Positions 675 to 58,157 of a stretch of DNA of 64,000 nt are shown in pieces. Source of the stretch: Butyrivibrio sp. (lineage in GTDB: Bacteria > Bacillota > Clostridia > Lachnospirales > Lachnospiraceae); NCBI GenBank assembly GCA_023664865.1, contig JAMPEU010000013.1, positions 23,367-87,366 on the forward strand. The letters run 5' to 3'. The notes beneath the pieces were generated by a model that searched no databases, was not told the DNA's origin, and saw only the letters and a list, made by a program, of their open reading frames with translations. Both the position numbers and the translations under genes were made by a program. Positions within the stretch are counted from its first letter, which is position 1. Each line of letters starts with the position of its first letter.

Positions 675-804
675 GTGCAGATTTTATATTTTGTAAGCAT
701 ACACGCTTGCGCTCCAACCTCACCGCAGCGGTACTAAGCTCGAAAAAACCTCGCTAAGTACCGGCGGCTCACTAGGGTATGCTTGCAAAATATAAAATCT
801 GCAC
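675..804. repeat. Family-1 hairpin element, copy A
   Basis: This 130-base element lies between divergent genes, upstream of both hflK and the phosphatase. The outer arms 675-702 and 777-804 are nearly perfect inverted repeats (GTGCAGATTTTATATTTTG and its complement). The interior carries the family core CGCAGCGGTACTAAGCTCG and CTAAGTACCGGCG. Its outer arm differs from the CATGAACTCATATG-like arms of most other copies, yet still pairs with itself. The rest of 531-850 is AT-rich with no gene seen. Confidence 0.85.
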
Positions 805-850
805 AGTATACCTTTATAAGATTTGTATTTAGAAAGGAACATAACCCGAC

Positions 851-1582
851 ATGAGAATAATTTTTATAAGACACGGCGATCCGGACTACGTTAATGACTC
901 GCTTACGGAAAAAGGCATCCGTGAAGCCAAACTTCTGGCAAAAAGGACGGCAAAATGGGAAAACATAACGGATATATACTGTTCTCCGCTTGGCAGGGCG
1001 CAGAAGACAGCCTCTTATTCACTTGCAGCGATGAAACGTAACGCCACAACTTATGAATGGCTTAAGGAATTTTTCTATCCGATTGATGATCCCACTACCG
1101 GGCGGCACGGCGTTCCGTGGGACTTTATGCCGGAATACTGGACTGAAATCGATGATATGTATGATAGGAATAACTGGAAAAATACGGAAATCTACCGTTC
1201 CAATCCCGAACTGATTCCGGCGTATAACGAAGTATGTACCGGGATAGACGGTATTCTGGAAAAATACGGCTACAAACGTTACCATAACTATTATGTGACG
1301 GAGCATAAAGAAACTCCCGAAACCCAGGACGCAACTATTGTGTTCTTCTGCCATCTCGGCGTGACTTTTGTAATGATGAGCCATTTGCTCGGCGTCTCGC
1401 CCGCTGTGCTTTTCCACGGTTTCTTTGTAGCGCCTACTTCCCTGACTATCCTTACAACCGAGGAGCGTATTCCGGGCAAGGCGGTATTCCGCACGCAAGT
1501 TCTGGGCGATACTACCCACCTTCACGACGGAACAGAACCAATTTCTGAGGCAGGGTATTTTACAGATGTATTTCAAGATTGA
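851..1582 (+). CDS. Histidine phosphatase family protein (phosphoglycerate mutase-like)
   Basis: A 243-residue protein of the branch-1 histidine phosphatase superfamily. The N-terminal RHG catalytic motif is intact (IIFIRHGDPDYVNDSLTEKG), followed by the usual PLGRAQKTA segment holding the second Arg. The C-terminal catalytic His lies in FFCHLGVTFVMMSHLLG. Such proteins remove phosphate through a phospho-His intermediate; the substrate cannot be told from sequence. An insert between the RHG motif and the C-terminal His (WLKEFFYPIDDPTTGRHG and after) is longer than in cofactor-dependent mutases, so this is not simply gpmA. The ATG at 851 follows AAAGGAAC with usual spacing. It is monocistronic, with repeat copy A upstream and the convergent anti-sigma gene downstream. 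Confidence 0.85.
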   Translation: MRIIFIRHGDPDYVNDSLTEKGIREAKLLAKRTAKWENITDIYCSPLGRAQKTASYSLAAMKRNATTYEWLKEFFYPIDDPTTGRHGVPWDFMPEYWTEIDDMYDRNNWKNTEIYRSNPELIPAYNEVCTGIDGILEKYGYKRYHNYYVTEHKETPETQDATIVFFCHLGVTFVMMSHLLGVSPAVLFHGFFVAPTSLTILTTEERIPGKAVFRTQVLGDTTHLHDGTEPISEAGYFTDVFQD

Positions 1583-1616
1583 AAAACAAATTAGTTGATA
1601 TTTCAGCATCGCCGGC

Positions 1617-2735
1617 TTAGCCAGTGGTGCTGATATTTCCAACTATCTCTAAAATCCAATTTGCGTCCTCTTCTTCCAATTCAAAATAATGACCTTCAAC
1701 AGCCAAAAGCTTGCAGCTATCGTTGCAAAACTTTGCATACAACTCTTCGCCATTGACGTAAAAGATAAAATTTATATCATATGGACAATTAGAATCAACC
1801 GATTTGATATTTGCACGCTTTAATATCCCTTTCATTTGCTCTATTTCATTCTCGCTAAACTGATATGACTCGCCTTTATCCGTAAACAATTCAATTTTTT
1901 CAATTAAATCAAACTTAATACCGTCCAATTCTCTATATTCCGCCAGCGCTTTAATTTTTCCTACCGCCTCCGATGATTTCAGCCAAAAGCAGATATCATT
2001 TTCCTCTTTATCTGAAATTACATCTATACATATCCTATCATCATCAAATACGCTAAAATTCACCTGTATATGTTCACTATCCATCGTCAGCAATACAATG
2101 GAAAAATCAATTCCCAATAAATGTGCATTCGGATTTATAGTTTCCGCTTCGCTAAGTATTTTTGAATTTTCAATACTATTTATAAAATCAATAATATCTT
2201 CCCGTTTATCTTGAATTATCGTCCTGTCCCTTCCGGCAATTTTCTTTGTAACAGCTATTATAGTGCTTTGCGGAAAGGATATATGGTTGTCATTTAAAGA
2301 AAATGAGGTATCTTCGCGATTTAAGTATATCGATTCTGAATTAATGGCAAGCGCATCTCCTTCAATTAATTTGTTTTCTGTCAAAAGCGTACTTTCTTCT
2401 CCTATATCTGTATGATGGCTATATAAAACAGAATCTTCCCAGATGTTTTTCATAGTCTCAAAAAATTTATTTCTATACGCCGCAACGCTCATTGACAGCA
2501 GAAAAGTCAAACCGCTTGCACATATCATGAAAACAGCCGCTTTCTTAGCCTGTCTTACAAATATGTTTATCCATGGATGCGCTTCCCTTCGTATTTGTTT
2601 TTTCATTCTACGCTCAAATTTATCTGAAAATTGATATTCATAATTAGTCTGACTTTCCAGCTCCTTTATAATAGCCGTATCGACAAGCGGCATATATTTA
2701 TAAAGCCATTCATCAGTTACCTGAATACGTTCCAT
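1617..2735 (-). CDS. Membrane-anchored anti-sigma factor partner of the adjacent ECF sigma factor
   Basis: A 372-residue protein with a cytosolic N-terminal section of about 63 residues, one transmembrane helix (AAVFMICASGLTFLLSMSVAA, about 66-86) and a large external domain. It overlaps the end of the sigma gene by 23 bases. That arrangement, with the single-pass topology, is standard for ECF sigma/anti-sigma pairs in Firmicutes. The N-terminal section lacks an HxxxCxxC zinc anti-sigma motif, so it is not a ZAS-type protein. The extracellular domain shows no recognised fold and may be the signal sensor. Function is inferred mainly from operon position and topology. Confidence 0.7.
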   Translation of the reverse strand: MERIQVTDEWLYKYMPLVDTAIIKELESQTNYEYQFSDKFERRMKKQIRREAHPWINIFVRQAKKAAVFMICASGLTFLLSMSVAAYRNKFFETMKNIWEDSVLYSHHTDIGEESTLLTENKLIEGDALAINSESIYLNREDTSFSLNDNHISFPQSTIIAVTKKIAGRDRTIIQDKREDIIDFINSIENSKILSEAETINPNAHLLGIDFSIVLLTMDSEHIQVNFSVFDDDRICIDVISDKEENDICFWLKSSEAVGKIKALAEYRELDGIKFDLIEKIELFTDKGESYQFSENEIEQMKGILKRANIKSVDSNCPYDINFIFYVNGEELYAKFCNDSCKLLAVEGHYFELEEEDANWILEIVGNISTTG

Positions 2736-3267
2736 TCTCGTTATCCTCCAATTTTCTTAACGCTTCCTCAATCAGCAGCTTGCCTCTGGCAATCCGCTGT
2801 CTGACTGTTCCTTCCTTAATTCCACACAATTTTGCTATTTCATTATTTTCTAAATTTGCCGAATATTTCAGTAAAAAAATGTCCCTATATTTTACCGGCA
2901 AGTTCTTTAATACATCTAAAACGCTGTTTTCCACATCTGTCTCCGTATATGATAACTGCACATTCTCATTAAGTTCATCTATGTATATTTCCTTCTGCAT
3001 TTGTATGCGCCTCTTTCTATATATGTCTATTGACACATTCTTTGTAATGGCAACCAAATACCTTTTTGTTGCCACGCTGTCAGTTTCTCCTACTTTATCC
3101 ATGTTTTTACTAAGACGCATAAACGCCTCATGTACAGCGTCTTCCGCGAGAAAATTATCCCGCAGTATATCTGTGGCGACTTTCTGCAGCAAATATCTAT
3201 ATTTTTCATATAGAATGACAAATTTTCTTCTCTCTTTCTCAGTATCTATCATCATCAAAAAAATCAT
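2713..3267 (-). CDS. ECF-family RNA polymerase sigma factor
   Basis: A 184-residue sigma-70 family factor with only regions 2 and 4. Region 2 is at about residues 15-85 (NFLAEDAVHEAFMRLSKN, then TKRYLVAITKNVSIDIYRKR). Region 4 is at about 115-170 (LKNLPVKYRDIFLLKYSANL, then AKLCGIKEGTVRQRIARGK as the helix-turn-helix). The ATG at 3267 follows GAGGG with six-base spacing. In-frame ATGs a few codons later are alternatives. It is translationally coupled to the anti-sigma gene. A candidate ECF promoter at 3312-3340 suggests autoregulation. Confidence 0.9.
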   Translation of the reverse strand: MIFLMMIDTEKERRKFVILYEKYRYLLQKVATDILRDNFLAEDAVHEAFMRLSKNMDKVGETDSVATKRYLVAITKNVSIDIYRKRRIQMQKEIYIDELNENVQLSYTETDVENSVLDVLKNLPVKYRDIFLLKYSANLENNEIAKLCGIKEGTVRQRIARGKLLIEEALRKLEDNENGTYSGN

Positions 3268-3311
3268 GCTTTTCCCTCGTTAATGCTATTCTTTGGTTTT
3301 CTCATTAATTA

Positions 3312-3340
3312 TAACGAAAAATCTAAGACGTTTTGTTACA
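3312..3340 (-). promoter_or_regulatory. Candidate ECF-type promoter for the sigma/anti-sigma operon
   Basis: Read on the minus strand there is TGTAAC (3340-3335), an 18-base spacer and CGTTA (3316-3312). This resembles the AAC-containing -35 and CGT-type -10 of ECF sigma promoters. It lies about 45 bases upstream of the sigma start codon, so the sigma factor may activate its own operon. Experimental support is absent. Confidence 0.5.
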
Positions 3341-3351
3341 TTTATATATAA

Positions 3352-3387
3352 AAAAAGAGCCCATCACATTGACAGACTCCCTTTAAG
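3352..3387 (-). terminator. Intrinsic terminator of trpS
   Basis: On the minus strand a ten-pair stem (GAGTCTGTCA with TGATGGGCTC, including wobble pairs) closes a three-base loop and is followed by a run of T. It sits directly after the trpS stop codon and isolates trpS from the sigma operon. Confidence 0.75.
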
Positions 3388-3395
3388 TTAATAAT

Positions 3396-4400
3396 TTATC
3401 TGATTTTTTCTGGAAAACCTACCTTTTTTTGCACTTTACGCAGGGTTTTGTTAGCGTAATAACCGGCTTTTTCCGCATTCGCTTTAATAATGCCGTCGAT
3501 ATATCCTTTGTCCTTGCTAAGACTGTCAAATCTCTCCTGCAGCGGACGCAATATATCTACAACTGCCTCTCCTACCGCCATTTTAAAGTCGCCGTAGCCT
3601 TTCCCGTCAAACTCTCTCTCGGTTTCTTCCGGCGTCTTATTAGTACATGCACAATATATATCGATTAGATTTCGTATTCCGGGCTGCTCTTCACAGTAGC
3701 GCACCTGACCTTCCGAATCCGTAACCGCCCTTTTGAATTTGCGGATAACCGTATCGGCATCATCCATAAGGTATATGCTCGCATTCGGATTTTCATCCGA
3801 CTTTGACATTTTCTTCGTCGGATCCTGCAGCGATTTGATGCTTGCCCCGGTCTTGCCGATATACGGCTCCGGAATTGTAAAGACATCACCGTAAATCGAA
3901 TTAAAACGCTGCGCAATATCTCTGGTAATCTCAAGGTGCTGCATCTGATCCTTGCCTACCGGCACCACATCTGACTGATAAAGCAGAATATCGGCTGCCA
4001 TCAATACAGGATAGGTAAAAAGCCCCGCGTTGATATTATCCGCATGTTTTGCCGCCTTGTCCTTATACTGAGTCATACGGTTTAATTCGCCCATATATGT
4101 AAAGCAGTTTAATATCCAAGATAATTCGGCATGTCCCGACACATGCGACTGGAAATATATGCAGTTTTTCTCAGGATCCAAGCCTGCCGCAATATAAAGC
4201 GTGAGCAGATTTCTTGCGCGCTTGCGCAATTCCGCGGGATCTTGCCTTATGGTAATCGAATGAAGGTCTACCACAGAGTAAAAACACAGATATTCGTCCG
4301 CCAACGTCACCCAGTTCTTAAGCGCACCCAGATAATTGCCAAGCGTCAGACTTCCCGTTGCCTGCATACCGCTGAATAAAACCTTTTCTCCATCTATCAT
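3396..4400 (-). CDS. trpS: Tryptophan--tRNA ligase
   Basis: Class I aminoacyl-tRNA synthetase charging tRNA-Trp. Visible signatures are the HIGH-like motif in MQATGSLTLGNYLGAL, the dimer/active-site stretch MAADILLYQSDVVPVGKDQ with the QHLEITRDIA segment, and KMSKSDENP as the KMSKS loop. Length (334 residues) matches bacterial TrpS. An ATG five codons upstream (4415) is possible, but the GGAGG that would serve as SD lies inside that extension, eight bases before the ATG at 4400, so 4400 is preferred. No T-box leader was found in the 150 bases upstream. It appears to be a single-gene unit with a clear terminator. Confidence 0.95.
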   Translation of the reverse strand: MIDGEKVLFSGMQATGSLTLGNYLGALKNWVTLADEYLCFYSVVDLHSITIRQDPAELRKRARNLLTLYIAAGLDPEKNCIYFQSHVSGHAELSWILNCFTYMGELNRMTQYKDKAAKHADNINAGLFTYPVLMAADILLYQSDVVPVGKDQMQHLEITRDIAQRFNSIYGDVFTIPEPYIGKTGASIKSLQDPTKKMSKSDENPNASIYLMDDADTVIRKFKRAVTDSEGQVRYCEEQPGIRNLIDIYCACTNKTPEETEREFDGKGYGDFKMAVGEAVVDILRPLQERFDSLSKDKGYIDGIIKANAEKAGYYANKTLRKVQKKVGFPEKIR

Positions 4401-4567
4401 AATATAATCCTCCATTCTTACTCAAACCGTGAGTTGTTATTAATAATTCTCTACATTTTCCATTTATCAAGCCTGAGCCAAAATAATATAAAACAGCACA
4501 ACTAAGTTTAACATTGCATCCATTGTTAGTCAAGACATACCAATCCCGAATTTCCTTAAACGTATGA

Positions 4568-4747
4568 CATATCAGCCCACAGGCGGCAGGAACACATATG
4601 TTCCCCGACGCGGTCCTTGAAAAACGCCGGTACTTGGTGAAAAAGTCGCAAAGCGGCTTTTGAACTTAGTACCGCTGCGCTTTTTCACGGAACGAGAGTG
4701 TGCCGCAAGGGGAACATATGTGTTCCTGCCGCCTGTGGGCTGATATG
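4568..4747. repeat. Family-1 hairpin element, copy B
   Basis: This 180-base element lies between trpS and the small Cys/Asn-rich gene. Its outer arms are about 40 bases long and almost perfectly complementary, with GGCGGCAGGAACACATATG on the left matched on the right. The core is in reverse orientation (GGTCCTTG, CGCCGGTACTTGGTG, CTTAGTACCGCTGCG, then the complement of the CGCTCTCGCTCC motif). Arm changes are matched on both sides. Confidence 0.9.
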
Positions 4748-4826
4748 CTATTTTCACAAACGAAACAGGGCACTCATAACAGTATGAATGCCCCTTCATC
4801 AACCCTAATGTAATGAATAGTTGTTT

Positions 4827-5078
4827 CTAATCTTCTTTTTCCTCACAGCCGCAAGTCTCTCTGTTATCCCTAAACGGCCTTGCCTCAAACCTCGGCTCAA
4901 ATTTCAAATCATCACAGCCACAGTCATTGTTGTTCACGCCGCTGTTGCAGCCGCAGTCATTATTATTGTTATTGCTGCAGCTGTTGTTATTGTTGTTTGA
5001 ACATGAGTTCTGCTCCTGACAGCGTCCGCGTCCATTGTTCCCCATTAATAAAAATAGTAAAATAATCCATGCGTTCAT
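4827..5078 (-). CDS. Small Cys/Asn-rich protein of unknown function
   Basis: A protein of 83 residues. The N-terminus is hydrophobic (MNAWIILLFLLMGNNGRGR). It continues into low-complexity segments in which CS or CGC pairs alternate with runs of four or five Asn, then an acidic CGCEEKED tail. Eight or more Cys in a short Asn-rich chain suggests a surface or spore-associated structural peptide or a metal/disulfide scaffold; this is inference only. The longer frame from 5105 is rejected because a strong AGGAGAGGG SD lies just upstream of the ATG at 5078. The repetitive AAC/AAT tracts may make the gene length-variable between strains. Confidence 0.6.
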   Translation of the reverse strand: MNAWIILLFLLMGNNGRGRCQEQNSCSNNNNNSCSNNNNNDCGCNSGVNNNDCGCDDLKFEPRFEARPFRDNRETCGCEEKED

Positions 5079-5138
5079 AGATGTTTCCCTCTCCTTTTTT
5101 CTCATAAGATATCTTATGCAAAAAGGAGCGGTCTGCCA

Positions 5139-5669
5139 CTATTTTATCAATACACGCTTACGAATATACCTGAACGTATAGTCCTCGCCCTTTTCAGCAA
5201 GCATCCGCAGCAGCAGCTCCAGTTTTCTTTTAGTGCTTTTATGGAGCATCTGCAAACCTTTTCCCTTCTTATAATATTCAAGCGGTGATTTATCCGTATA
5301 ATTCTTCCCATTATATACTTTAGACGCCGCGATTCTGTCCATCAACATCTCCACAATATACTCATTCGGCATAGGCACGGGCACAATTTTCCCCTCAGTT
5401 TCACTATAATCGAGCCAATACTCAAAATGGTGCCTGTTTCTGCCCTTATGGTGCAGCCATGCCGAAGAATAGCCTATGTCCTCGCGCTCGGCATTATTAG
5501 GGCTCCTATATCCCTGATAATATTTTGCCCCGGCAAGAAATTCCGTCGGGCTGTACTTGGACAAGTCATGTAAAAGCCCCTGTTTATATAAACCTACCTT
5601 AAAACAACCCTTCATCACCAAATATCTATGGTATGTTATTGTCTTGAAATGCAGCCACGCCTTGTTCAT
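5139..5669 (-). CDS. DUF5662 family protein
   Basis: A 176-residue protein resembling the DUF5662 family, common in Firmicutes and phages and without known activity. It has a conserved HDLSKYSPTEF segment (about 34-44), a His-rich WLHHKGRNRHHFEYW segment (about 71-85) and a MLMDRIAASKVYNGKNY segment. The His/Asp spacing recalls HD-type metal-binding helices, but no canonical HD motif is complete, so catalysis is only a possibility. It starts four bases inside the end of the GH13-like gene, so the two are translationally coupled. Confidence 0.75.
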   Translation of the reverse strand: MNKAWLHFKTITYHRYLVMKGCFKVGLYKQGLLHDLSKYSPTEFLAGAKYYQGYRSPNNAEREDIGYSSAWLHHKGRNRHHFEYWLDYSETEGKIVPVPMPNEYIVEMLMDRIAASKVYNGKNYTDKSPLEYYKKGKGLQMLHKSTKRKLELLLRMLAEKGEDYTFRYIRKRVLIK

Positions 5670-7702: not shown

Positions 7703-7921
7703 GTAATTCCTCCCGGTGCAATAATTGCAAAATAACCGATAATCCAACCATTTTATATATTTTACCATATTTCTCCGATAATCAAAACAAAAACTTTGAA
7801 TATCGGGGAAATTTTCTTGAATATATGAAATTATTTTTGTACAATATAGTCAGCATGGTTAATTATAAAACTGCATAACTATATGTCGCGGTTATACACA
7901 GAAAGGAGCCATTCACCCCAT

Positions 7922-8322: not shown

Positions 8323-8513
8323 GGCGGCATGAACACATATGCTCACTGACAAGGCCCTTGTAAAACGCCGGTACTTAGTGAAAAAGCTGCTTTTTAGCTT
8401 TTGAACTTAGTACCGCTGCGTAACAATAAGAATGTCCGCGTAGCGTGGCATTCGTTTGTTTATACACGGAGCGAAAGCGTGCCTTGTCAGTGAGCATATG
8501 TGTTCATGCCGCC
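8323..8513. repeat. Family-1 hairpin element, copy C, with internal insertion
   Basis: This 191-base element lies between the convergent DUF1292 and helicase genes. The arms GGCGGCATGAACACATATG and its complement are perfect. The core is in reverse orientation. Between CTTAGTACCGCTGCG and CACGGAGCGAAAGCG there are about 42 extra bases (8420-8463) not present in other copies, which form a small hairpin of their own (GAATGTCC...TGGCATTC). Confidence 0.9.
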
Positions 8514-8526
8514 CCACAGCCTTCAC

Positions 8527-11997: not shown

Positions 11998-12148
11998 GCA
12001 ACATGGACTCATATGATTTCTCTTGAGGTCCTTGGAAAACGCCGGTAGTTAGTGAAAAAGACGCAAAGCGGCTTTTGAACTTAGTACCGCTGCGATTTTC
12101 CACGGAGCGAGAGCGTACCTCAAGTGAAAGCATATGAGTTCATGTTGC
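11998..12148. repeat. Family-1 hairpin element, copy D, with family-2-like termini
   Basis: Between gltX and the hydrogenase gene. The arms are GCAACATGGACTCATATG and GCATATGAGTTCATGTTGC, with the core in reverse orientation (GGTCCTTGGAAAACGCCGG). The inner stem uses GGAAAA/TTTTCC where others use GTAAAA/TTTTAC. Just outside the arms lie CCAGAGTTTT on the left and AACTCGTGACAG on the right, closely matching the ends of the family-2 hairpins. Confidence 0.85.
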
Positions 12149-13728: not shown

Positions 13729-13862
13729 GGCATGAACTCATATACTTCCCCTTGAGGTACGCTCTCGCTCCGTGTAAAATCGCAGCGGTACTAAGCTCGA
13801 AAATACCTCGCTAAGTACCGGCGTTTTACAAGGACCTCAAGATGAAGTATATGAGTTCATGC
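13729..13862. repeat. Family-1 hairpin element, copy E
   Basis: Between the hydrogenase gene and the ABC permease gene. The arms are GGCATGAACTCATATACTTC and its near complement. The core is forward: CGCTCTCGCTCCGTGTAAAA, CGCAGCGGTACTAAGCTCG, CTAAGTACCGGCGTTTTACA. The apical loop is the short CGAAAATACCTCG form, also seen in copy A, instead of the AAAAGC...GCTTTTT form. Confidence 0.9.
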
Positions 13863-13889
13863 CTTAACCAATCACTTTGAACAATATCA

Positions 13890-25520: not shown

Positions 25521-25665
25521 GCATGAACTCATATGTTTCCCTGAGTGGTCCTTGTAAAACGCCGGTACTTAGTGAAAAAGCTGCTTTTGGGCTTTTGAGC
25601 TTAGTACCGCTGCGATTTTACACGGAGCGAGAGCGTACCACTCATGGAAACATATGCGTTCATGC
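25521..25665. repeat. Family-1 hairpin element, copy F
   Basis: Lies between the divergent EAL-protein and polyamine regulator genes. The arms are GCATGAACTCATATGTTTCC and its complement (right arm GCGTTCATGC has one change). Core in reverse orientation with GGTCCTTGTAAAACGCCGG. It stands about 55 bases before the pot promoter, so here it is not at a 3' gene end. Confidence 0.9.
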
Positions 25666-29186: not shown

Positions 29187-29327
29187 GTTGTACAATATAT
29201 ACAAAACAACGTAGGGCACGCTTTCGCTACATTGCCGCCAGTAGCGGTACATAAGGTGCTAAAGTACAGCACCTAAGTACCGACGGCGGCACAGTACCCT
29301 GCTTATGTTTTGTATATATTGTACAAC
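29187..29327. repeat. Family-1 hairpin element, copy G (divergent), inside the pot operon
   Basis: Between potC and potD in the same transcription unit. The arms GTTGTACAATATATACAAAAC and its complement are long and AT-rich, unlike other copies. The core is recognisable but diverged: GGGCACGCTTTCGCTAC, TAGCGGTACATAAGGTGCT, AGCACCTAAGTACCGACGGCGGC. The apical stem AGGTGCT/AGCACCT is unique. All stems still pair. Confidence 0.8.
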
Positions 29328-30491: not shown

Positions 30492-30644
30492 AAGCACATG
30501 GACGCATATAATTCCCTTTGAGACACGCTCTCGCTCCATAAAAAACGCAGCGGTACTAAGTTCAAAAGCTAAAAAACAGCTTTTTCACTAAGAACCGGCG
30601 TTTTTTAAGGGTCTCGGCAGGGAATTATATGCGTCCATGTGCTT
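30492..30644. repeat. Family-1 hairpin element, copy H
   Basis: Between the convergent potD and lipoprotein genes. The arms AAGCACATGGACGCATATAA and its complement are perfect. Core forward: ACACGCTCTCGCTCC, AACGCAGCGGTACTAAG, CACTAAGAACCGGCG. The inner stem is TAAAAAACGC with GCGTTTTTTA. It may act as a shared terminator, but no T-run directly follows the outer stem. Confidence 0.9.
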
Positions 30645-31256: not shown

Positions 31257-31406
31257 ATTACAAAATTCTAATTCCATAATTAAAATTACAACATTCATTT
31301 TCATAATTAATTAAAATTACAAAGTTCTATTTCCATAATTAATCAAAATTACAAAGCTCTATTTTTATAATTAATTAAAATTGCAAAATTCATTTCCATA
31401 ATTAAA
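31257..31406. repeat. AT-rich tandem repeat, five units of about 28-33 bases
   Basis: Five head-to-tail units follow the pattern ATTACAAAGTTCTATTTCC then ATAATTAATTAAA, each with a few changes. They lie upstream of the lipoprotein gene and just before the family-2 hairpin at 31423. No spacers separate the units, so this is not a CRISPR array. Possibly a curved, upstream-element-like DNA or a slippage product. Confidence 0.75.
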
Positions 31407-31422
31407 GTTTAGCCAATAACCA

Positions 31423-31508
31423 GAGTTTAGAAATCATGAACAAAATAAGGAGCGACTTACCGCTTTTCAGGCATTGGAGCTCCGTTTTTGTTCATGATTT
31501 CTAAACTC
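31423..31508. repeat. Family-2 hairpin element, copy 1 (overlaps YkgJ-type stop codon)
   Basis: Outer arms GAGTTTAGAAATCATGAACA and its complement. The interior holds AAGGAGCGACTTACCGCTTT, TCAGGCATTGGAGCTCCG and TTTTTG. The last bases of the right arm (CTA at 31501) are the stop codon of the minus-strand gene that follows. The same core is present at 52040 and 63817. Confidence 0.9.
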
Positions 31509-32242: not shown

Positions 32243-32388
32243 GCATGGACGCTTATGTTTCTCTGAGTGGTCCTTAAAAAACACCGGTCCTTAGTGAAAA
32301 AGCTGCTTTTTAGCTTTTGAACTTAGTACCGTTGTGTTTTTTACGGAGCGAGAGCGTGCCACTCTGAGAAACATAAGCGTTCATGCTG
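32243..32388. repeat. Family-1 hairpin element, copy I
   Basis: Between the YkgJ-type gene and the ABC ATPase gene. The arms are GGCATGGACGCTTATGTTTC and its near complement. Core in reverse orientation, with the inner stem changed to TAAAAAACACCGG and CCGTTGTGTTTTTTA. This is a good example of paired changes compared with GTAAAACGCCGG and CCGCTGCGATTTTAC in copies E and F. Confidence 0.9.
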
Positions 32389-37693: not shown

Positions 37694-37773
37694 CGTAATT
37701 CTTCCTATAAATATTAGCAAGCTGTGCTATGGTACACATAATGATCACCTTCTATTTCCATTAAAATAAGAAA

Positions 37774-39636
37774 TCACAATTTCGACGCAATTTCTTCATC
37801 TGCTACCGCTTTTTCAATCTCTCCCATTAAACGATAAACTTTCGCTCTGAGTATATAGGCGTTTTTATCTTCAGAATTTAGTTCAATTACTTTGGTATAA
37901 TCAGAAAGCGCTTTCTCATTTTCTCCCATGCCAGCATAGGTGACTCCGCGATTATAATAAGCATCCTCATAATCCGGCTTTAACTCGATTGCTTTGGTGT
38001 AATCTGAAAGCGCTTTCTCGTTTTCGCCCATGTCAGCATAGGTGACTCCGCGATTATAATAAGCTTTCTCATGATCCGGCTTTAACTCGATTGCTTTGGT
38101 ATAATCTGAAATCGCTTTCTCATTTTCACCCATGTCAGCATAGGTGGCTCCGCGATTATTATAAGCATCATCATCATCTGGCTTTAGCTCGATTGCTTTG
38201 GTGTAATCTGAAAGTGCTTTCTCATTTTCGCCCATGTCAGCATAGGTGTTTCCACGATTATAATAAGCATCCTCATAATCTGGCTTTAACTCGATTGCTT
38301 TAGTGTAATCAAAAAATGCTTTCTCGTTTTCGTCCATTTCAGTATAGATGTTTCCGCGATTATTATAAAACACAGCTATGTCTGGTTGCTTTTCAATTGC
38401 GTATGAATAACATTCAATTGCACTTTCATACTTTCCTAAATTATAATATCTATAACCTTGACGCCAATAGTCCCACGCTGTCATTTGATTCGATTTTTTG
38501 CGTTCATTCTCCGATATGGCTAATCGATCTTCTATTTTTTCTATTTCCTTCCTAAACTCATCCTCACTCTGATTTGGCTCTCCATTTATATCCATTGTAT
38601 TAATATTTTCTTCACGTTCAATGAGTTTATTATATTCTGTCTCATAATTTTCAATTTGCAATTTCATCCGGTCTTCTAAGTATTTCCCTGTTTTATGAGG
38701 TTCAATATTATCAGGAAACAAAGCATTCCCAATAGCAAGCATTATAGCATCAAAACCAGCTGTGCGAACAAGAAAACCTTTCTTCTGCTGCACAAGCTTT
38801 TGTATTTTTTCATTAGGGAGTCCGTACTCTTCCATATAGCACCAGTATATGCCATTTCTCATCTTTACACTTTCTTCAGCCAAAAATTCCATCAAGCTAT
38901 TATCCCCTCCACCATATCCAATGACTATCGGCGTATAGCTTTGAAATACACTTTCCAAGACATTATGCCATTTATCTTTTAAACTATCAGTTTCTTCCGG
39001 CATGTTCAGTGGATCAAAGAAAATTCCCCTATGCACTTTAGCTATTATAGGTCGGCTAATATTCGGATCTCCTGCATAATCTGCCAGAAGCTCATGATTT
39101 ATTACGAGAGGCTTACTACTCGTATACATAAATAACGCATCCTCGACCAGACTATCAAAATTTGTTGTTATAACCAAATTATTTCTGCCTTTATCCGTCA
39201 ACATGAGCGTCAATGGATGATATCCAAAACTTGGGTTTGCATCAGCCATTAATTTTTCAAGATAATGATATCCATTTCTAGAGTTGGGAAAAAAACGAAG
39301 TTTATATATATCAAAATAATATTCACTTGGAAGCGGCGTTCCCAAGTCTTTTGACTTTTTCCAAGCTTCTTCTATTTCCTTGAAATCGTATTCCAGGCGA
39401 TTCTCCCCTTTCAGTTTTTCAGCAGTTTCATGAACTTCTGCTAACCCCGGATGTTTCTCCATTTCTGACATCCATCTTCGTTCTAATTCACCGCCCATAG
39501 GAATGCCGGAAGATACCGATGCACCTGAGCCAAGAATAAAGCAAAATCTCTCAGAGCTATCTATGCCTTCCTTGATAGCTCCAACAAGTCGTATTGTCGA
39601 TATTATTCGATAATCCTCGATAATTTGTTTATCCAT
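37774..39636 (-). CDS. SIR2-like domain protein with tetratricopeptide repeats (possible defence NADase)
   Basis: A 620-residue two-part protein. Residues about 1-300 form a SIR2_2-type domain: FCFILGSGASVSSGIPMGGE (NAD-binding GAGxS...GIP), LVITTNFDSLVEDAL, PIIAKVHRGIFFD with the catalytic His, and PIVIGYGGGDNS. A coiled linker follows (about 320-385, NYETEYNKLIEREE, EKIEDRLAISENE). Residues about 390-615 hold six full TPR units and a half unit. Similar SIR2 fusions deplete NAD during phage infection. The inner TPR units are almost identical at DNA level. ATG 39636 follows AAGGAGC with eight-base spacing. Confidence 0.82.
   Translation of the reverse strand: MDKQIIEDYRIISTIRLVGAIKEGIDSSERFCFILGSGASVSSGIPMGGELERRWMSEMEKHPGLAEVHETAEKLKGENRLEYDFKEIEEAWKKSKDLGTPLPSEYYFDIYKLRFFPNSRNGYHYLEKLMADANPSFGYHPLTLMLTDKGRNNLVITTNFDSLVEDALFMYTSSKPLVINHELLADYAGDPNISRPIIAKVHRGIFFDPLNMPEETDSLKDKWHNVLESVFQSYTPIVIGYGGGDNSLMEFLAEESVKMRNGIYWCYMEEYGLPNEKIQKLVQQKKGFLVRTAGFDAIMLAIGNALFPDNIEPHKTGKYLEDRMKLQIENYETEYNKLIEREENINTMDINGEPNQSEDEFRKEIEKIEDRLAISENERKKSNQMTAWDYWRQGYRYYNLGKYESAIECYSYAIEKQPDIAVFYNNRGNIYTEMDENEKAFFDYTKAIELKPDYEDAYYNRGNTYADMGENEKALSDYTKAIELKPDDDDAYNNRGATYADMGENEKAISDYTKAIELKPDHEKAYYNRGVTYADMGENEKALSDYTKAIELKPDYEDAYYNRGVTYAGMGENEKALSDYTKVIELNSEDKNAYILRAKVYRLMGEIEKAVADEEIASKL
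37880..38400 (-). repeat. 102-base tandem repeats encoding TPR units
   Basis: About five consecutive 102-base units encode 34-residue TPRs with the pattern AYYNRGVTYADMGENEKALS then DYTKAIELKPD. Neighbouring units differ by only a few bases, unlike the diverged first and last units. This shows recent expansion or gene conversion, and the number of units may vary between strains. Confidence 0.9.
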
Positions 39637-39671
39637 GCAGCAACGCTCCTTATTGTTTTCTCCCCACTTAT

Positions 39672-39708
39672 AAAAAAGCCCGCAAACGTTATATTTACGA
39701 GCTTTTTT
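39672..39708. terminator. Terminator hairpin between GGGtGRT and SIR2-TPR genes
   Basis: AAGCCCGCAAA and TTTACGAGCTT form a stem (wobbles allowed) with a T-run on either strand. On the minus strand it follows the GGGtGRT gene stop by about 45 bases and precedes the SIR2-TPR SD. Confidence 0.75.
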
Positions 39709-39750
39709 CACTTTTCTTCATTTTAAATTTTAGAACTTGCCACAATTTCT

Positions 39751-41701: not shown

Positions 41702-41848
41702 GGCATGAACTCATATGTTTCTGTGAGTGGCACGCTCTCGCTCCGTGTAAAATCGCAGCGATACTAAGTTCAAAAGCCGCTTTGCGTCTTTTTCACTAAG
41801 TACCGGCGTTTTACAAGGACCACTCCCAGAAACATATGAGTTCATGCC
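41702..41848. repeat. Family-1 hairpin element, copy J
   Basis: Arms GGCATGAACTCATATGTTTC and its complement are perfect. Core forward: GGCACGCTCTCGCTCCGTG, CGCAGCGATACTAAGTTC, CACTAAGTACCGGCG. It ends five bases before the manA stop codon at 41853, so it may serve as the manA 3' structure. Confidence 0.9.
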
Positions 41849-50670: not shown

Positions 50671-50696
50671 ATATCATGCTCCTTCCCTATATCTGT

Positions 50697-50725
50697 TAAA
50701 AAAAGAGCCGGCTAAGCAGCCAACC
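50697..50725 (-). terminator. Intrinsic terminator downstream of the small membrane gene
   Basis: On the minus strand GTTGGCT pairs with AGCCGGC (wobbles) around GCTT, followed by CTTTTTTT. It lies upstream of the WYL gene and ends the 50806-50985 transcript. Confidence 0.75.
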
Positions 50726-50805
50726 CTTTTGCTTGCTAAATCTACATTTTCACATGAACAGCGCAATAAATGCACAGACCTGCTGAATAATTGCTTTTAC
50801 TTTAT

Positions 50806-50985: not shown

Positions 50986-51079
50986 CGGTTTCACCCTTTC
51001 CGCAGCGCCTTATATGTAACTTACAGCCGCTTACAAATTCTTCCTGTATTATAACACCAAACAGATAATATCGTCAAGC

Positions 51080-51988: not shown

Positions 51989-52039
51989 ACGCCTTTCTAA
52001 GTCTGCGAATTTATGTCCCTAAGACATTTTCAATACCCA

Positions 52040-52121
52040 GATTTTAGCCTAAATGAACAAAATAAGGAGCGACTTACCGCTTTTCAGGCATGGAGCTCCG
52101 TTTTTGTTTTTAGGCTAAACT
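52040..52121. repeat. Family-2 hairpin element, copy 2
   Basis: Between the TPM and zinc-ribbon genes. The arms are GATTTTAGCCTAAATGAACA and its near complement ending CTAAACTC. The core is AAGGAGCGACTTACCGC, TTTTCAGGCATGGAGCTCCG, with one T fewer than in copies 1 and 3. The flanking right end continues ATGACAG. Confidence 0.85.
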
Positions 52122-52147
52122 CATGACAGTAGATAATATTCTCAAAG

Positions 52148-53125
52148 TCATACATAAAACCGCAGCACCATCTCAAACATCGCCGCCACGGCCACAAAGA
52201 CCGTCGCCGCATATCCTATCATTTTCCTGACAGAAAGCGGCGTCTTACCTATCGCCTTCCCTGTCTGCCCGTTCACATAGAATGTATATGTCTGCTCCCT
52301 GTAGCGGTATGTATATATCCATACCGGGAAAAGCGCATAAAAATATCCCAGCCTTTTGGTGCGTACATCTCTATGAAAAGGCTTAAGCGTCGAGTACCCC
52401 GACAGCGATTCATTAAGAATTGCTTCCGCCGAGCCCCGCACCTTTGCAAGCGCCCTATGTTCTAATGTTATTGCGTCCTGATTGAAAAACTCGGCATAAA
52501 AGCCCGACATATATTTTTCCTGAAAATTTTCCAACGCCCTATAATCATAAGGCTCCATTAAATCCATTGTGCCATCGTCCATTAAAATTGATGCGTCCAC
52601 AGGGATTTTATCATAATCAATATCCATGTCGCGCACCACTTTATAATGGCTGGTCTCGGTATATTCCTTATTGCCGCTGCGCCATGAGCGTACTCTGGTC
52701 CCTTCTCCGTCAAATACGCAGTTAGCCATATAATCGTATAACCAGAAAGGCACATAAGAGCCTTCCATTTTATCTAAAGAAGCCTCCGAAAGAAAACTCG
52801 ATGGGGTAAAAGCGCGTTTCTTAAACTCTTTTTTCAAGATTTCCTTTACGCTCTCTTTTCCTACCTTAAATGGCATAATGAGATTGGGATTATAGCTGCC
52901 TTGAACTTTATCGTCAAACACAATATAGTGTCCGCAGTGTTCGCACCTTAGAGCCGACGTATACTCGCTTGGATTAAGCGGTGCGCCGCAGTTAGAACAT
53001 ATATCTTCCGAACTTCCTTCCAACTTCTGCTCACTGTCAATCCCCTCACAGTGCGGGCAGTACATCGCTTTCTTTTCCGGACTGTAGACCACATTGCCGC
53101 CGCAGTTACGACATTTAAAAATCAT
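52148..53125 (-). CDS. Zinc-ribbon membrane-associated protein of unknown function
   Basis: A 325-residue protein with three N-terminal zinc-ribbon pairs: CRNCGGNVVYSPEKKAMYCPHC, ICSNCGAPL and RCEHCGHY. A folded middle section (about 75-290) includes SYVPFWLYDYMANCVFDGEG and FPVWIYTYRYREQTYTFYVN. A C-terminal helix (MIGYAATVFVAVAAMFEMVL) probably anchors it. Such proteins often sit beside TPM-domain genes, as here. No enzymatic motif is recognised. It overlaps the MutS-like gene by 11 bases, so they are coupled. Confidence 0.75.
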   Translation of the reverse strand: MIFKCRNCGGNVVYSPEKKAMYCPHCEGIDSEQKLEGSSEDICSNCGAPLNPSEYTSALRCEHCGHYIVFDDKVQGSYNPNLIMPFKVGKESVKEILKKEFKKRAFTPSSFLSEASLDKMEGSYVPFWLYDYMANCVFDGEGTRVRSWRSGNKEYTETSHYKVVRDMDIDYDKIPVDASILMDDGTMDLMEPYDYRALENFQEKYMSGFYAEFFNQDAITLEHRALAKVRGSAEAILNESLSGYSTLKPFHRDVRTKRLGYFYALFPVWIYTYRYREQTYTFYVNGQTGKAIGKTPLSVRKMIGYAATVFVAVAAMFEMVLRFYV

Positions 53126-54854
53126 TGAGTTTTCCTCCCTTATGCCATTGCCCTGTCTTTAAAAAAGTCTGCGCCATTGTCTCCGCATCATTTACGAGGT
53201 CCTTATCATATCCAAGGACCTTGAGAAGCGCTATAGCGTTTCTGGAAACGGCAGGACCTTTCTGCAATTTATAATTAAAAAGTATATCGTTTTTCTCTAT
53301 TTCTTCTTCAAAATGATAATTATCGTATACATCAGATAAGAGCTTGGTCAGCTCCAAATCATGAGTCGCAGCAAAGCATATTACGTTCTTTGCCGCAAGC
53401 GCTTTAAGAATCTGCGTAGACGCCGCTATACGCTCTACCGTATTTGTACCGCGCAATACTTCGTCTACAAAACATAACACATGTTTTTTGTCCTTTTCGG
53501 CACAGGCAACGTTATTCAAAATTCTGCGGATAGATTTTACTTCCGCCATATAATAACTGTCGCCGCTCTCTATGTCGTCTTTTAAGGACATGGAAGAATA
53601 TATGCGGAACATTACCCCTTTATATGACGCTGCCATACAGGTATGTATGGTCTGCGCCAGAATAGCGTTTACCGCTACTGCGCGCAGGAATGTAGACTTG
53701 CCGGAAGCATTGGAGCCGGTAAGCAGCACTCCTTTGTCCACTTCTATATCGTTCTTTACCGGATTATTCAATAACGGATGATATAATTGTTTTATATTAA
53801 TATAACCATCTTCGTCTTCTTCCGTAATAAACTCCGGAATACAATAATCGCCCTTTAAATTTGTGCGGTATTCGCCTACGACGATAGCAGTCTCTATCAT
53901 TCCCATAACAGTAACCATTTCGTCTATGTCGCCTATATGATTTCTGACAACCCTGAGCATTTGATTGAATTTTATCAAATCGAGATAAAAAATCATTCGC
54001 AGATAATCAAATAAAGTTTCTAAAATATTGCCGTTTGCCGACATTCCCCCACGTCCGCCTGAACTTGAGAACACGATAAAAGAATTGCGTCTGAAATTCC
54101 CCATTGCCTTATAGCATTTCAAAAGACGCTCCTGCTCTTTATCAATTTCGCTTATGGAATATTTGCCGATATCATTCGCCGCATCCAATAGCCGGGATAT
54201 ATAAGCGAAACTCGTGATATAATGACCTATCTCTTTCTGTTCCTTAAAATAATTAATCATATTATAGCTTATAACCACCAACAGCGCGCAGCACCCTAGG
54301 GGTACGGAGACAAACATCAGTCCGAGACTTATAATGACTAGAAGGAGTGCCATATAATATCTAAAACTGTTGCGCTCTCCTAATGTATCAAGGAAACTAA
54401 GATACTCGTACAGTGAATATTTGCTCATTCTTCCAAGCTGCGCAAACTTCACCTGTAGTTTAACCCTTAAGTCCGCATTATCCATAAAATATCTGACATG
54501 GCTTTCAAAACGCTCAAGTTCCTCCTTGCTCTGAACCGGCGTGCGCAGCCTGTAATAAAGATATTCATCGCCCGCAGAGCTGTGGGAATAATTCATCTTG
54601 CTGTATATCCTGTCCATGTTTAAATCATTCCATGTAATATCATCAAGCTGATTCGCCTCTTCATGCTCTTTATAATACATGGGGATATGCTGCTCAAGTT
54701 CGTCTGTATCATATTCTCTGTCCACGGCATCTCCATACCGTTCATAAAGTTTCTTGATGAAACGCTTTCTCTCATTCATGCTGTTTATATAGCCCATTAC
54801 CATAATCAACAGAATGAAAAGAAGCATTGCTCCCGCAAAAATAAAATATTCCAT
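53115..54854 (-). CDS. Membrane-anchored MutS-family ATPase
   Basis: A 579-residue protein with an N-terminal transmembrane helix (YFIFAGAMLLFILLIMVMGY), a MutS domain III-like helical part (WNDLNMDRIYSKMNYSHSSAGDEYLYYRL), a central pair of helices (MALLLVIISLGLMFVSVPLG, CCALLVVISYNMI) and a C-terminal ATPase. Walker A is TGSNASGKSTFLRAV, the Walker B region reads VLCFVDEVLRGTNTVER, and the loop CFAATHDLEL holds the His. The mismatch-binding domain I is absent, so it is not a mismatch repair MutS; its function is unknown. Confidence 0.82.
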   Translation of the reverse strand: MEYFIFAGAMLLFILLIMVMGYINSMNERKRFIKKLYERYGDAVDREYDTDELEQHIPMYYKEHEEANQLDDITWNDLNMDRIYSKMNYSHSSAGDEYLYYRLRTPVQSKEELERFESHVRYFMDNADLRVKLQVKFAQLGRMSKYSLYEYLSFLDTLGERNSFRYYMALLLVIISLGLMFVSVPLGCCALLVVISYNMINYFKEQKEIGHYITSFAYISRLLDAANDIGKYSISEIDKEQERLLKCYKAMGNFRRNSFIVFSSSGGRGGMSANGNILETLFDYLRMIFYLDLIKFNQMLRVVRNHIGDIDEMVTVMGMIETAIVVGEYRTNLKGDYCIPEFITEEDEDGYINIKQLYHPLLNNPVKNDIEVDKGVLLTGSNASGKSTFLRAVAVNAILAQTIHTCMAASYKGVMFRIYSSMSLKDDIESGDSYYMAEVKSIRRILNNVACAEKDKKHVLCFVDEVLRGTNTVERIAASTQILKALAAKNVICFAATHDLELTKLLSDVYDNYHFEEEIEKNDILFNYKLQKGPAVSRNAIALLKVLGYDKDLVNDAETMAQTFLKTGQWHKGGKLNDF

Positions 54855-54932
54855 AACTCATGTTATCCAATCTGGCAACTATTCATTACCCGTTCAATTA
54901 TAAAACCTGATAACTGCTTATCAGTTTCACAA

Positions 54933-56237
54933 TTATCCAATCTGTTCTTTTATTTTCTCCGCCTTGTCATAGATGGCGTCAACATCAATGAAATCCGCAA
55001 ATTTACCGTCCATATATAAAATCTGGCCGTTTATCATTGTCATTTTTATATTCTGTTTGCTGCCGCTGTAAACAATATTCTTAGAAATATTGTTAATAGG
55101 CTGCATATTAGGCTGGCGTAAGTCTATCATTATCATGTCCGCAAGCCTGCCTTCTTCCAGCACATCGGTATCCGGAAGGTTCATTGCCTTAGAGCCGTTT
55201 ACCGTTGCCATTTTTAGCACTTCCCATGCGTCCACGGCGGATGCGTCCATTGCCTTTAATTTAGCAAGCCCCGTTACCAGGAACATCTCGCGGAACATAT
55301 CCAGACAGTTATTGCTTGCAGGACCGTCCGTTCCGATTGCTACGTTTATTCCTTTCTCAAGGTATTCGGCTATCGGCGCTATGCCGCTGGCAAGCTTGGT
55401 ATTCGAGCCCGGATTCGTCACCACGCTTAAATTTCTCTTTTTAAAGATTTCCATATCCTCTTCATCAAGATAGACGCAGTGGTATCCGCCGCCGCCGTAA
55501 TCATATATGCCTAAAGAATCAAAAAGCTTGGTCGGCGACATTCCGTAACGCTCTATACAACCATCTGTTTCCGACTTAGTTTCCGCCAGATGCGTAAATA
55601 CCGGCGCTTTATATTTATGCGCAAGCTTGGCTACGCTCATTAGAAGTTCTTTAGAACATGTATATTCCGCGTGGAAGCCGATGAAATAACTAAGCAGTGG
55701 ATTGTCGTTATTATATTTTAAATAACACTCTTCCGTCTTGGCAAGCGATTCGCTAAAATCCCCCTGTCCGCTCATGCCGCTTACCTGAACGCAGCGCATA
55801 CCCATATCCACACAGGCTTTTGCAATCGTATCAGGAGTCAGATACATATCGAAAATCGCCGTAATCCCGCTTGTCAGATATTCCAGAATTGCCAGCTTGG
55901 TAAGATGGTAAATCATTTCCCCGTCCATTCTTGCCTCAACCGGAAATATCTGTTTCGTCAGCCAGTCCTGCAGCGGCATATCGTCAGCATAAGAACGCAG
56001 CAGAGTCATACCCGAATGGGTGTGAGCATCTTTAAAGCCCGGCATAAGAAGGTTTCTTCCACAGTCAATTTCCTTATCCCATATTATGCTCTGGAGCTTT
56101 AACTTGCGGTAGACTTCTTCCGTATCCGCGCCGTCTCCCACATATATAATGCGCTCGTTCTGAACCCAGACCTCGCCTTCTAATATTTTATCGTCTTTCA
56201 TTGTAAGTATCCGCGCGTTATAAAATCTGATATTCAT
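54933..56237 (-). CDS. Amidohydrolase (5'-methylthioadenosine/S-adenosylhomocysteine deaminase-like)
   Basis: A 434-residue metal-dependent amidohydrolase. The metal ligands are in GFKDAHTHSGMTLLRSYAD (HxH), IGFHAEYTCSKELL, PVFTHLAETKSE and NVAIGTDGPASNNCLDMF, all intact. The family deaminates adenosine-like compounds such as MTA and SAH, or guanine/cytosine analogues; the nucleoside-salvage neighbours (cdd, purine nucleoside phosphorylase) support a nucleoside role. ATG 56237 is preferred to 56246 by SD spacing. Confidence 0.85.
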   Translation of the reverse strand: MNIRFYNARILTMKDDKILEGEVWVQNERIIYVGDGADTEEVYRKLKLQSIIWDKEIDCGRNLLMPGFKDAHTHSGMTLLRSYADDMPLQDWLTKQIFPVEARMDGEMIYHLTKLAILEYLTSGITAIFDMYLTPDTIAKACVDMGMRCVQVSGMSGQGDFSESLAKTEECYLKYNNDNPLLSYFIGFHAEYTCSKELLMSVAKLAHKYKAPVFTHLAETKSETDGCIERYGMSPTKLFDSLGIYDYGGGGYHCVYLDEEDMEIFKKRNLSVVTNPGSNTKLASGIAPIAEYLEKGINVAIGTDGPASNNCLDMFREMFLVTGLAKLKAMDASAVDAWEVLKMATVNGSKAMNLPDTDVLEEGRLADMIMIDLRQPNMQPINNISKNIVYSGSKQNIKMTMINGQILYMDGKFADFIDVDAIYDKAEKIKEQIG

Positions 56238-56340
56238 ATATCTCATGTTCCTTTCTGCAGAATTTACGTTTTCATGCGGTCAGCCCAGTAAATGCGCAGA
56301 CCTGTTAAATAGTTGCTTCCATTCTATCAGCTTAATTATA

Positions 56341-56769
56341 TTACATGCCGAGATTTGAAGCCCCGAATCCATTCGGAAGCAGTTCTTCAAGCGTCTGCAC
56401 CTTATAATCATTTACCGACTTAGCCACAATAATATCAAAGTCCTTCGGGTTGCAGAATTCCATCATCACCTGTCTGCATACCCCGCATGGATAGGCGTAA
56501 GACGTTATCTCTTCTCCTTTTGCACCGCCGACAATGGCGATAGCTTTAAACTGCCGCACACCTTCGCTTACCGCCTTGAAAAATGCCGTCCGCTCTGCGC
56601 AGTTTGTCGGTGAATACGCCGCATTTTCAATATTGCAGCCCGTGTATATGCTGCCGCCTTCGGTAAGCAGCGCCGCGCCCACCTGATAGCCTGAATAAGG
56701 GGAATACGAAATCTTTCTTACCTCTAGCGCCTTATTTATTAAGGTTTCTGCCATAGCTTTATCTATCAT
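56341..56769 (-). CDS. cdd: Cytidine deaminase
   Basis: A 142-residue homotetrameric-type cytidine deaminase converting cytidine or deoxycytidine to uridine forms. Zinc and catalytic sites are NCAERTAFFKAV (Cys and catalytic Glu) and YPCGVCRQVMMEFC (CxxC). The N-terminal SPYSGYQVGAALL binds substrate. ATG 56769 has GGAG-poor upstream sequence; the start is conserved in length. It lies 31 bases behind the purine nucleoside phosphorylase gene, so a shared operon is likely. Confidence 0.93.
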   Translation of the reverse strand: MIDKAMAETLINKALEVRKISYSPYSGYQVGAALLTEGGSIYTGCNIENAAYSPTNCAERTAFFKAVSEGVRQFKAIAIVGGAKGEEITSYAYPCGVCRQVMMEFCNPKDFDIIVAKSVNDYKVQTLEELLPNGFGASNLGM

Positions 56770-56800
56770 TGATTAACAGCTCCAGTCTTTAAATCCATTC

Positions 56801-57634
56801 TTATAATACATTAGCGAACTTTTTAACCGTTTCCGTCAGAAGCTTCTCAAATTTCGGTGCAACGGCGTTTGCAGCCGCCTGTACTTCCTCGTGTGTAAGC
56901 GGCGTGCTGTTCATGCCTGCCGCCAGATTGCATACACAGGATACGCCGCAGATTTTCATACCCATATGGTTTGCCGCAATCGCTTCCACTACCGTACTCA
57001 TTCCTACCGCGCTTACGCCGAGCATATTCAACATCTTAATCTCCGCCGGAGACTCAAAAGACGGTCCTGTTAATTGCGCGTACACGCCTTCAAATAATTC
57101 GATATCATTCTCTTTCGCCGTACTTCTGATGATTTCCTGAAGGTCTTCATCATAGACATGCGTCATATCAGGGAATCTTGTGCCTAGTTCGTCGATATTC
57201 GCACCTATTAACGGATTGGGGGCAAAACATGAAATATGGTCGGTAAGCATCATCAGGCTGCCGGCATGCAGTTTGGGATTAAGACCGCCCGAAGCGTTGG
57301 TTAAAAACAATATTTCCGCACCCATCATTTTCATAAGTCGTGTAGGAAGCACTACGTCGGTAATCGGATAGCCTTCATAATAATGCACCCTGCCCTGCAT
57401 AAGCACCACAGGCACCTTGTCTATATATCCGAAGATAAATTTGCCTGCATGTCCCGGAACCGTAGAAACCGGAAAGCCCTCAATCTCACTGTAAGGAAGC
57501 TCCGCCCTTACGTCTATGGTATTGGCAAAGTTCCCAAGCCCCGAACCGAGAACCACTGCAGCCTTAGGCTCAAAGTCGATTTTCGCCTTATAACATTCAT
57601 AGCATTTTAAAAGTTTCTCATACACTTTATTCAT
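56801..57634 (-). CDS. Purine-nucleoside phosphorylase (class I, trimeric)
   Basis: A 277-residue phosphorylase cleaving purine nucleosides with phosphate. Motifs are VVLGSGLGNFANTI, STVPGHAGKFIFG, RVHYYEGYPITDVVLPTRLM, FLTNASGGLN (substrate contact), AQLTGPSFESPAEI and GMSTVVEAIAANHMGMKICG. Length and motifs match the PunA/PNP family and not hexameric DeoD. ATG 57634 follows AGGAGGAG. It heads the salvage group with cdd. Confidence 0.93.
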   Translation of the reverse strand: MNKVYEKLLKCYECYKAKIDFEPKAAVVLGSGLGNFANTIDVRAELPYSEIEGFPVSTVPGHAGKFIFGYIDKVPVVLMQGRVHYYEGYPITDVVLPTRLMKMMGAEILFLTNASGGLNPKLHAGSLMMLTDHISCFAPNPLIGANIDELGTRFPDMTHVYDEDLQEIIRSTAKENDIELFEGVYAQLTGPSFESPAEIKMLNMLGVSAVGMSTVVEAIAANHMGMKICGVSCVCNLAAGMNSTPLTHEEVQAAANAVAPKFEKLLTETVKKFANVL

Positions 57635-57795
57635 ATCAATTCTCCTCCTGCTCAGCCTGCGGATTTAGCATAATCTCCCCGCAATCCATTATATTTTAAT
57701 ATAGTATATCATTTTCTGATAAAATAAAAAAGAGATATCTTGTAATTATATCTCCTTTCTCCTTCTTAACATTTCATGCTGCTCACGGTATAGAA

Positions 57796-57946
57796 GCGGC
57801 ATGAACTTATGTGCTTCCACTTGAGGCACGTTCCCACTACGTGGAAAATCGCAGCGGTACTAAGCTCAAAAGCTATAAAACAGCTTTTTCGCTAAGGACC
57901 GGCGTTTTCCAAGTACCTCAAGCGGAAGCACATAAGTTCATGCCGC
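57796..57946. repeat. Family-1 hairpin element, copy K
   Basis: Between the purine nucleoside phosphorylase gene and spoIVA. Arms GCGGCATGAACTTATGTGC and complement are perfect. Core forward with altered CGTTCCCACTACGTGG in place of CGCTCTCGCTCCGTG, and inner stem GGAAAATCGC with GCGTTTTCC. Copy L follows 61 bases later. Confidence 0.9.
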
Positions 57947-58007
57947 CCAAGGCTGTGATTAATATACAATTTATGAATAGTTTATTCCGCTTAATTCACG
58001 TTTCCAA

Positions 58008-58157
58008 GCGTCAGGGACACATATGTTCACTGAAAAGGTCCTTGTAAGACGTCGGTACTTAGTGAAAAAGCTGTTTTTTAGCTTTTGAACTTAGTACCGC
58101 TACGCCTTACACGGAGCGAGAGTGTGCCTTTTCTGTGAACATATGTGTCCCTGACGC
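58008..58157. repeat. Family-1 hairpin element, copy L
   Basis: Arms GCGTCAGGGACACATATGTT and complement are perfect. Core reverse; the inner stem is GTAAGACGTCGG with CCGCTACGCCTTAC, different from the GTAAAA/TTTTAC of most copies but still paired. The region 57635-58248 holds only copies K and L and AT-rich flanks. Confidence 0.9.

Follow-up and report, generated by a model that had tools for sequence, protein, structure and literature searches.

What keeps the two arms of a long palindrome matched while its copies drift apart? The question is raised by a 64,000-nucleotide stretch of a Butyrivibrio sp. genome (contig JAMPEU010000013.1, positions 23,367 to 87,366; here called the window), which carries twelve copies of an intergenic repeat. 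Each copy is a long hairpin whose outer arms enclose, in turn, the one-sided conserved stretch CGCTYNCGCT, an inner stem and the core hairpin CGCAGCGGTACTAAG...CTAAGTACCGGCG. An earlier note on this DNA attributed the matched changes in the stems to a folded RNA, a DNA cruciform or correction of one arm by the other during mobilisation. The changes are real: the core is conserved, and the arms, which vary from copy to copy and from species to species, remain complementary. Of the three explanations, folded RNA is the least supported and arm-to-arm correction of DNA the best, owing to inversions of the core and to one orthologous pair of copies; that correction takes place during mobilisation is not borne out, as compensated double changes also occur at sites common to two genomes. 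We lean slightly towards the reading that the family consists of non-autonomous mobile palindromes of about 200-230 bp, resembling miniature inverted-repeat transposable elements (MITEs), whose arms are homogenised by template switching between inverted repeats.

In this reading, one arm would serve as template for the other while DNA is replicated or repaired. Such switching would copy new mutations across the stem and would sometimes flip the spacer; the arms would drift together and the core would keep its one-sided motif, we propose because the two strands of the core differ too much for either to act as template for the other. The available part of PMC8604942 ascribes the combination of homogenised arms and an inverted spacer to template switching, and that of PMC8794818 describes similar footprints in RNA hairpins. 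Since the two features together form the published signature, their joint occurrence in this family points to copying between DNA arms.

The inversions were found at filled sites shared between genomes. We compared the window's own 3.82-Mb genome (G000) with a close relative (G020), and G016, from the window's own genus, with G039. Five of 24 shared filled sites scored as inverted between G016 and G039, and 2 of 17 between G000 and G020; the reverse run of G020 against G000 gave 2 of 18, one being a site also found in the forward run. In the six inverted sites that were aligned (the five of G016/G039 and L194, with L191 and L213 outside this set) identity rose in every case once the core was flipped, for example from 357 to 384 positions. 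Four are clean cases (L303, L305, L322 and L194), matching nearly base for base after the flip, rare loop variants included; at L297 and L323 the inversion is less clear and separate insertions are possible. The core of the window copy at 8343 also appeared, by eye, inverted at the same site of G020, with a different loop. A spacer inverted between unchanged outer sequence is a feature of template switching, although homologous recombination between the arms could be another route to the same flip.

The matched changes themselves are well above controls. In an alignment of 39 diverse sequences, pairing holds in 89.9% of pair cells, and sliding the partners by 1-3 columns lowers this to 28-43%. 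The slid control favours the structure, since that was read from the same 39 sequences. Cells changed on both sides numbered 135 against 45.6 in shuffled data, a value reached in none of 500 shuffles; the weakest measure, the number of further pair types, gave 42 against 37.8 and was reached in 31 of 500. Within G000, the agreement of a left arm with its own right arm was 0.806, against 0.607 with the right arm of another copy; for 81 of 97 copies the own right arm ranked within the top 5%, and for 59 no other right arm scored higher. G020 gave 0.804 against 0.624 (top 5% for 42 of 62 copies, best for 24). In two close named genomes, where 11 distinct copies of 14 were used (one cut short and two duplicates dropped), the figures were 0.942 and 0.674, unequalled in 2000 permutations, so that matched arms are mostly copy-specific. 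Among nearest paralogues grouped by identity, the closest bin held no two-sided changes; in the other three, in order of increasing distance, Watson-Crick pairs were kept in 34 of 41, 121 of 142 and 457 of 543 such changes. Transversion pairs made up 29-34% of the compensated doubles in these three bins, and transversions 27-43% of the single changes.

Compensation is also seen at sites shared between genomes. The orthologue in G020 of the window copy at 13729..13863 differs by three compensated pairs. In the orthologous pair L188/L037, two compensated base pairs are the only differences from CATG inward, and no other locus in the fetched DNA has their exact loop, which for this pair makes gene conversion hard to accept as the sole cause of the double changes. 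By reading, without a formal test, compensation was not clearly different in orthologues and close paralogues; we therefore also discarded the idea that compensation is tied solely to copying events.

A second, unrelated family of intergenic hairpins with a different conserved core, AGGAGCGACTTACCGCTTTTCAGGCA, behaves likewise. It has 96 matches in G000 (up to 3 mismatches; none in the reversed control), and the window holds three copies with copy-specific matched arms:

31416-31508, second-family copy
52033-52125, second-family copy
63810-63902, second-family copy

In 26 of 35 copies of this second family (9 were off-pattern) own-arm agreement was 0.888 against 0.636, unequalled in 2000 permutations. 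Two families with matched arms would be more easily explained by a shared mutational process than by two separate RNA functions.

Several observations weigh against arm-to-arm copying. At strict orthologues one-sided changes outnumber compensated doubles, 27 to 3 between G016 and G039 (10 loci) and 14 to 9 between G000 and G020 (4 loci). By per-locus counts all three G016/G039 doubles come from the doubtful locus L302, and 6 of 10 G000/G020 doubles from L199, maybe a replaced copy. Correction in place is thus slow at best. Doubles rise gradually with divergence, with none keeping pairing in the closest paralogues, and sequential compensation would give the same picture; gene conversion from other copies can also mimic doubles. 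The L188/L037 pair itself carries a one-sided difference just outside CATG. Finally, the core changes more slowly than the flanks at shared sites in both genome pairs (23/847 against 77/946, P = 5e-7; 15/318 against 56/388, P = 1e-5), and so do the arms in G016/G039 (34/811, P = 0.0008) and, not clearly, in G000/G020 (33/328, P = 0.09). This suggests constraint, with the qualification that some of the intergenic DNA counted as flank is poorly aligned. A looser orthologue count (11 loci with 38 compensated doubles, 7 broken doubles and 114 singles) was set aside since it likely includes independent insertions.

The slower change is what one would expect if a host or transposition protein recognised the folded element, so that mutations breaking the arms were lost and compensated ones kept. 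Selection of this kind, for a DNA hairpin or cruciform, is a serious rival, even if we regard it as rather unlikely. It would account for the conserved unpaired motifs within covarying stems, and a cruciform, in which both strands fold, fits the balance between mismatch types: among one-sided changes G-T and A-C were equally frequent (324 against 338, P = 0.61; 304 against 326 in paralogues, whose pairs share ancestry and are not independent events, and 20 against 12 in orthologues). Hairpin selection alone does not, however, predict inversion of the core, and shared sites show many one-sided changes that break the pairing (13 and 23). No cognate protein was found, the Y1 transposase being absent from four of four genomes while most other enzymes were not searched for. 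The same balance speaks against a folded RNA, in which elements transcribed at gene 3' ends would stabilise, terminate or process transcripts, since selection on the RNA of one strand should let G-T outlast A-C. For mismatches inside copies the G-T to A-C ratios were 42:76, 20:53 and 31:29, values that a fixed mismatch and common descent have probably inflated. What would fit an RNA is the position of the elements, the median distance from the arm boundary being 21 nt to a gene 3' end (193 ends) and 90 nt to a 5' end (189 ends); of the 230 copies considered, 27 that overlap a call of an open reading frame (ORF) and 12 at locus edges were set aside, and the distances rest on simple ORF calls with no random-placement control. 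The core points with the genes in 73 of 123 cases, a slight excess (P = 0.047), and the predicted folds are stable (nine loci). On the other hand, this orientation is only weakly biased and elements lie in all three gene arrangements. Rfam gave no match at the gathering cutoff over the whole window and, in six loci searched at E up to 1, none that fell on an element copy. We therefore consider an RNA function improbable.

Core inversion at shared sites could also be the work of an invertible switch, with a recombinase turning the core around between the arms and altering how neighbouring genes are expressed. By reading of the six alignments, the breakpoints differ between loci, and we judge this explanation very unlikely; orientation was compared between species only. 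A bolder version, a genome-wide set of more than 100 self-flipping gene-end palindromes whose arms would be copied and cores inverted often enough to switch core strand and function at many loci within a population, is distinctly doubtful as well. If template switching between arms is the cause, its significance goes beyond this family. In computational work, covariation serves as the chief proof of RNA structure, and covariation with no G-U signal, together with core inversion, argues that strong covariation can arise from DNA arm copying. The family would then be a test bed for a false-positive route to RNA structure and a dense record of inverted-repeat events in bacteria.

All twelve copies that the earlier note had listed were matched by a covariance model (58.7 to 107.6 bits) built from 39 rows, among them 5 of the 12 window copies; the copy at 29187 was left out of the rows. 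The copies in the window are:

657..822, plus strand, copy 1: AT-rich, different arms (657-702/777-822) and short loop; model match 691-789, 86.9 bits
4575..4740, minus strand, copy 2: long arms; model match 4602-4713, 77.3 bits
8322..8511, minus strand, copy 3: extra hairpin within the one-sided loop; model match 8343-8492, 61.5 bits
11998..12146, minus strand, copy 4: model match 12017-12128, 86.0 bits
13729..13863, plus strand, copy 5: short loop; model match 13747-13846, 107.6 bits
25521..25667, minus strand, copy 6: model match 25537-25648, 88.5 bits
29187..29327, plus strand, copy 7: GTTGTACAATATATAC arm type and diverged core; model match 29206-29308, 58.7 bits
30494..30639, plus strand, copy 8: model match 30513-30623, 88.0 bits
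32241..32387, minus strand, copy 9: model match 32259-32369, 86.0 bits
41702..41848, plus strand, copy 10: model match 41720-41831, 84.9 bits
57797..57945, plus strand, copy 11: model match 57816-57927, 87.1 bits
58007..58157, minus strand, copy 12: orientation opposite to copy 11; model match 58027-58137, 87.1 bits

Two motifs are enriched as well. The one-sided CGCTCTCGCTCCGTG has 9 matches (up to 3 mismatches) against 0.94 expected, with none of 100 shuffles reaching 9; for AGCGGTACTAAG, allowing up to 2 mismatches, 3.4 matches were expected and 15 found, of which 11 fall inside the listed copies. Its account of arms, inner stem and pairing holds as described except for two copies with entirely different arms. 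The arms at 657-822 are unrelated to those of the other copies and the core is retained; at 29187-29327 the arms are unrelated and the core has diverged. The window thus contains at least three arm types. In some copies the one-sided loop contains an additional hairpin with a second CACGCTACGCG-like motif (window 8343-8492; L245:11378-11529), and a tiny CAGATAATTTACGAAGTAAATTTTCTG-like hairpin lies inside copies of both repeat families (L171:2719-2819, L189:3969-4069, L207:13912-14012, L206).

The elements are mobile, as clean empty orthologous sites and the sharing of 8 bp between flanks indicate. For 44 copies of G000 both flanks were found in G020, and 18 of these sites were short enough to look empty; between G016 and G039 this held for 4 of 28. 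Ten of 28 candidates were judged by reading to be clean empty sites, the others holding neighbouring copies or reading ambiguously. The arms are missing from the sites read as clean, which rules out their derivation from pre-existing target palindromes. Terminal inverted repeats are present within arm types (GTTACTNTTCACAG; CACGGAAATCAATTTTCAGTCAGC) and differ between types. Both GTTACTNTTCACAG ends could be recognised in 34 of 161 copies, and the 8-nt flanks of these agree at 0.419 against 0.322 in shuffled data, where the largest of 200 values was 0.393, which points to a target-site duplication; agreement at the seven other flank lengths (5-7 and 9-12 nt) was not above shuffles. The different end CACGGAAATCAATTTTCAGTCAGC in G016 showed flank overlaps of 7 and 11 bp, and one copy of G020 an overlap of 21 bp (25 by eye).

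A transposase of the cut-and-paste type, acting in trans, would probably mobilise the elements. The earlier note saw no transposase nearby, which could be checked in part: there is none among ten window proteins searched in Pfam and none obvious in the first 70 residues of the ORFs listed. A search for the Y1 transposase (PF01797) gave no match in four of four genomes, with a control positive in 5 of 14. For a parent element, one genome (G039) was searched with one end type. This gave 73 end matches. At 12 of the 20 places fetched a contig end or assembly gap interrupts the copy; a further 5 are lone ends, 2 hold half a copy and 1 a short derivative. The sole protein neighbouring these ends that was compared with Pfam is an Rpn-type gene adjoining two element ends; it lies between separate copies and its family has 2-4 matches per genome, and no link is claimed. 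Among the places seen were a short remnant with both element ends kept and the middle deleted (L333:1847-1917) and, at L338 and L352, half elements that continue into other DNA.

The family is abundant, with at least 150 covariance-model matches in G000 and 86 in G020. Of the matches, 99 of 109 were kept in the search covering the window copies and 62 of 74 in the next, the rest scoring below 30 bits and lying nearly all on the opposite strand of kept copies; two further sets comprised 69 of 71 (two at contig ends left out) and 47 of 56 (without nine that showed the same sites again, in named loci). A pattern scan of named genomes found at least 88 stretches, under titles that include Lachnospiraceae, Blautia, Roseburia, Acetatifactor and Clostridium sp.; the pattern demands an exact core, so that these rows overstate core conservation. 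In a class sample of 291 genomes under stricter filters 7 matched, all among the 10 from the window's own family, against none of 281 outside it. The host range is apparently this bacterial family, the Lachnospiraceae. Plasmid and phage collections gave no match, and a scan of viral contigs with a sporulation protein, meant to place the host, was negative.

The earlier reader knew no name for the element, and we came to the same result: beside the negative Rfam searches, the open literature gave none, a coverage that excludes most subscription papers and the supplementary tables of PMC8040213, described in its available part as a human-microbiome screen for candidate structured RNAs. The family is apparently without a known name, and MITE-like with copy-specific matched arms. 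It shares homogenised arms and inverted spacers with template-switch (quasipalindrome) mutation; the available parts of these reports (PMC8604942, PMC8794818) concern yeast coding genes, rRNA and microRNA hairpins, whereas here the process would act on a whole mobile family. Like the REP/REPIN/BIME (repetitive extragenic palindrome) sequences associated with RAYT (Y1) transposases it forms high-copy intergenic palindromes, but REP sequences measure 20-40 bp and fall into GTAG- and CGTC-tagged groups, as far as the accessible part of PMC3733652 goes, and the present elements are about 200-230 bp long, with no Y1 match in the four genomes searched. With MITEs it has in common that it is short, non-coding and present in many copies, with terminal inverted repeats, empty sites and a short target duplication; it differs in that its ends vary between copies of one genome, matched within each, in that the inner core is the conserved part, and in the negative outcome of the transposase searches described above. 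In invertons, a segment between inverted repeats is found in both orientations. The present family likewise has such a segment in both orientations, here seen at sites shared between species; invertons are single loci, whereas this family consists of dispersed repeats. The term, as used in the part of PMC11892184 available, denotes invertible elements.

Two further repeats lie in the window. A 102-bp tandem repeat at 37753-38364, reported as five overlapping 204-nt copies, is mostly inside the ORF 37774-39711, and AT-rich tandem repeats of about 31-32 bp occupy 31263-31409 between two genes.

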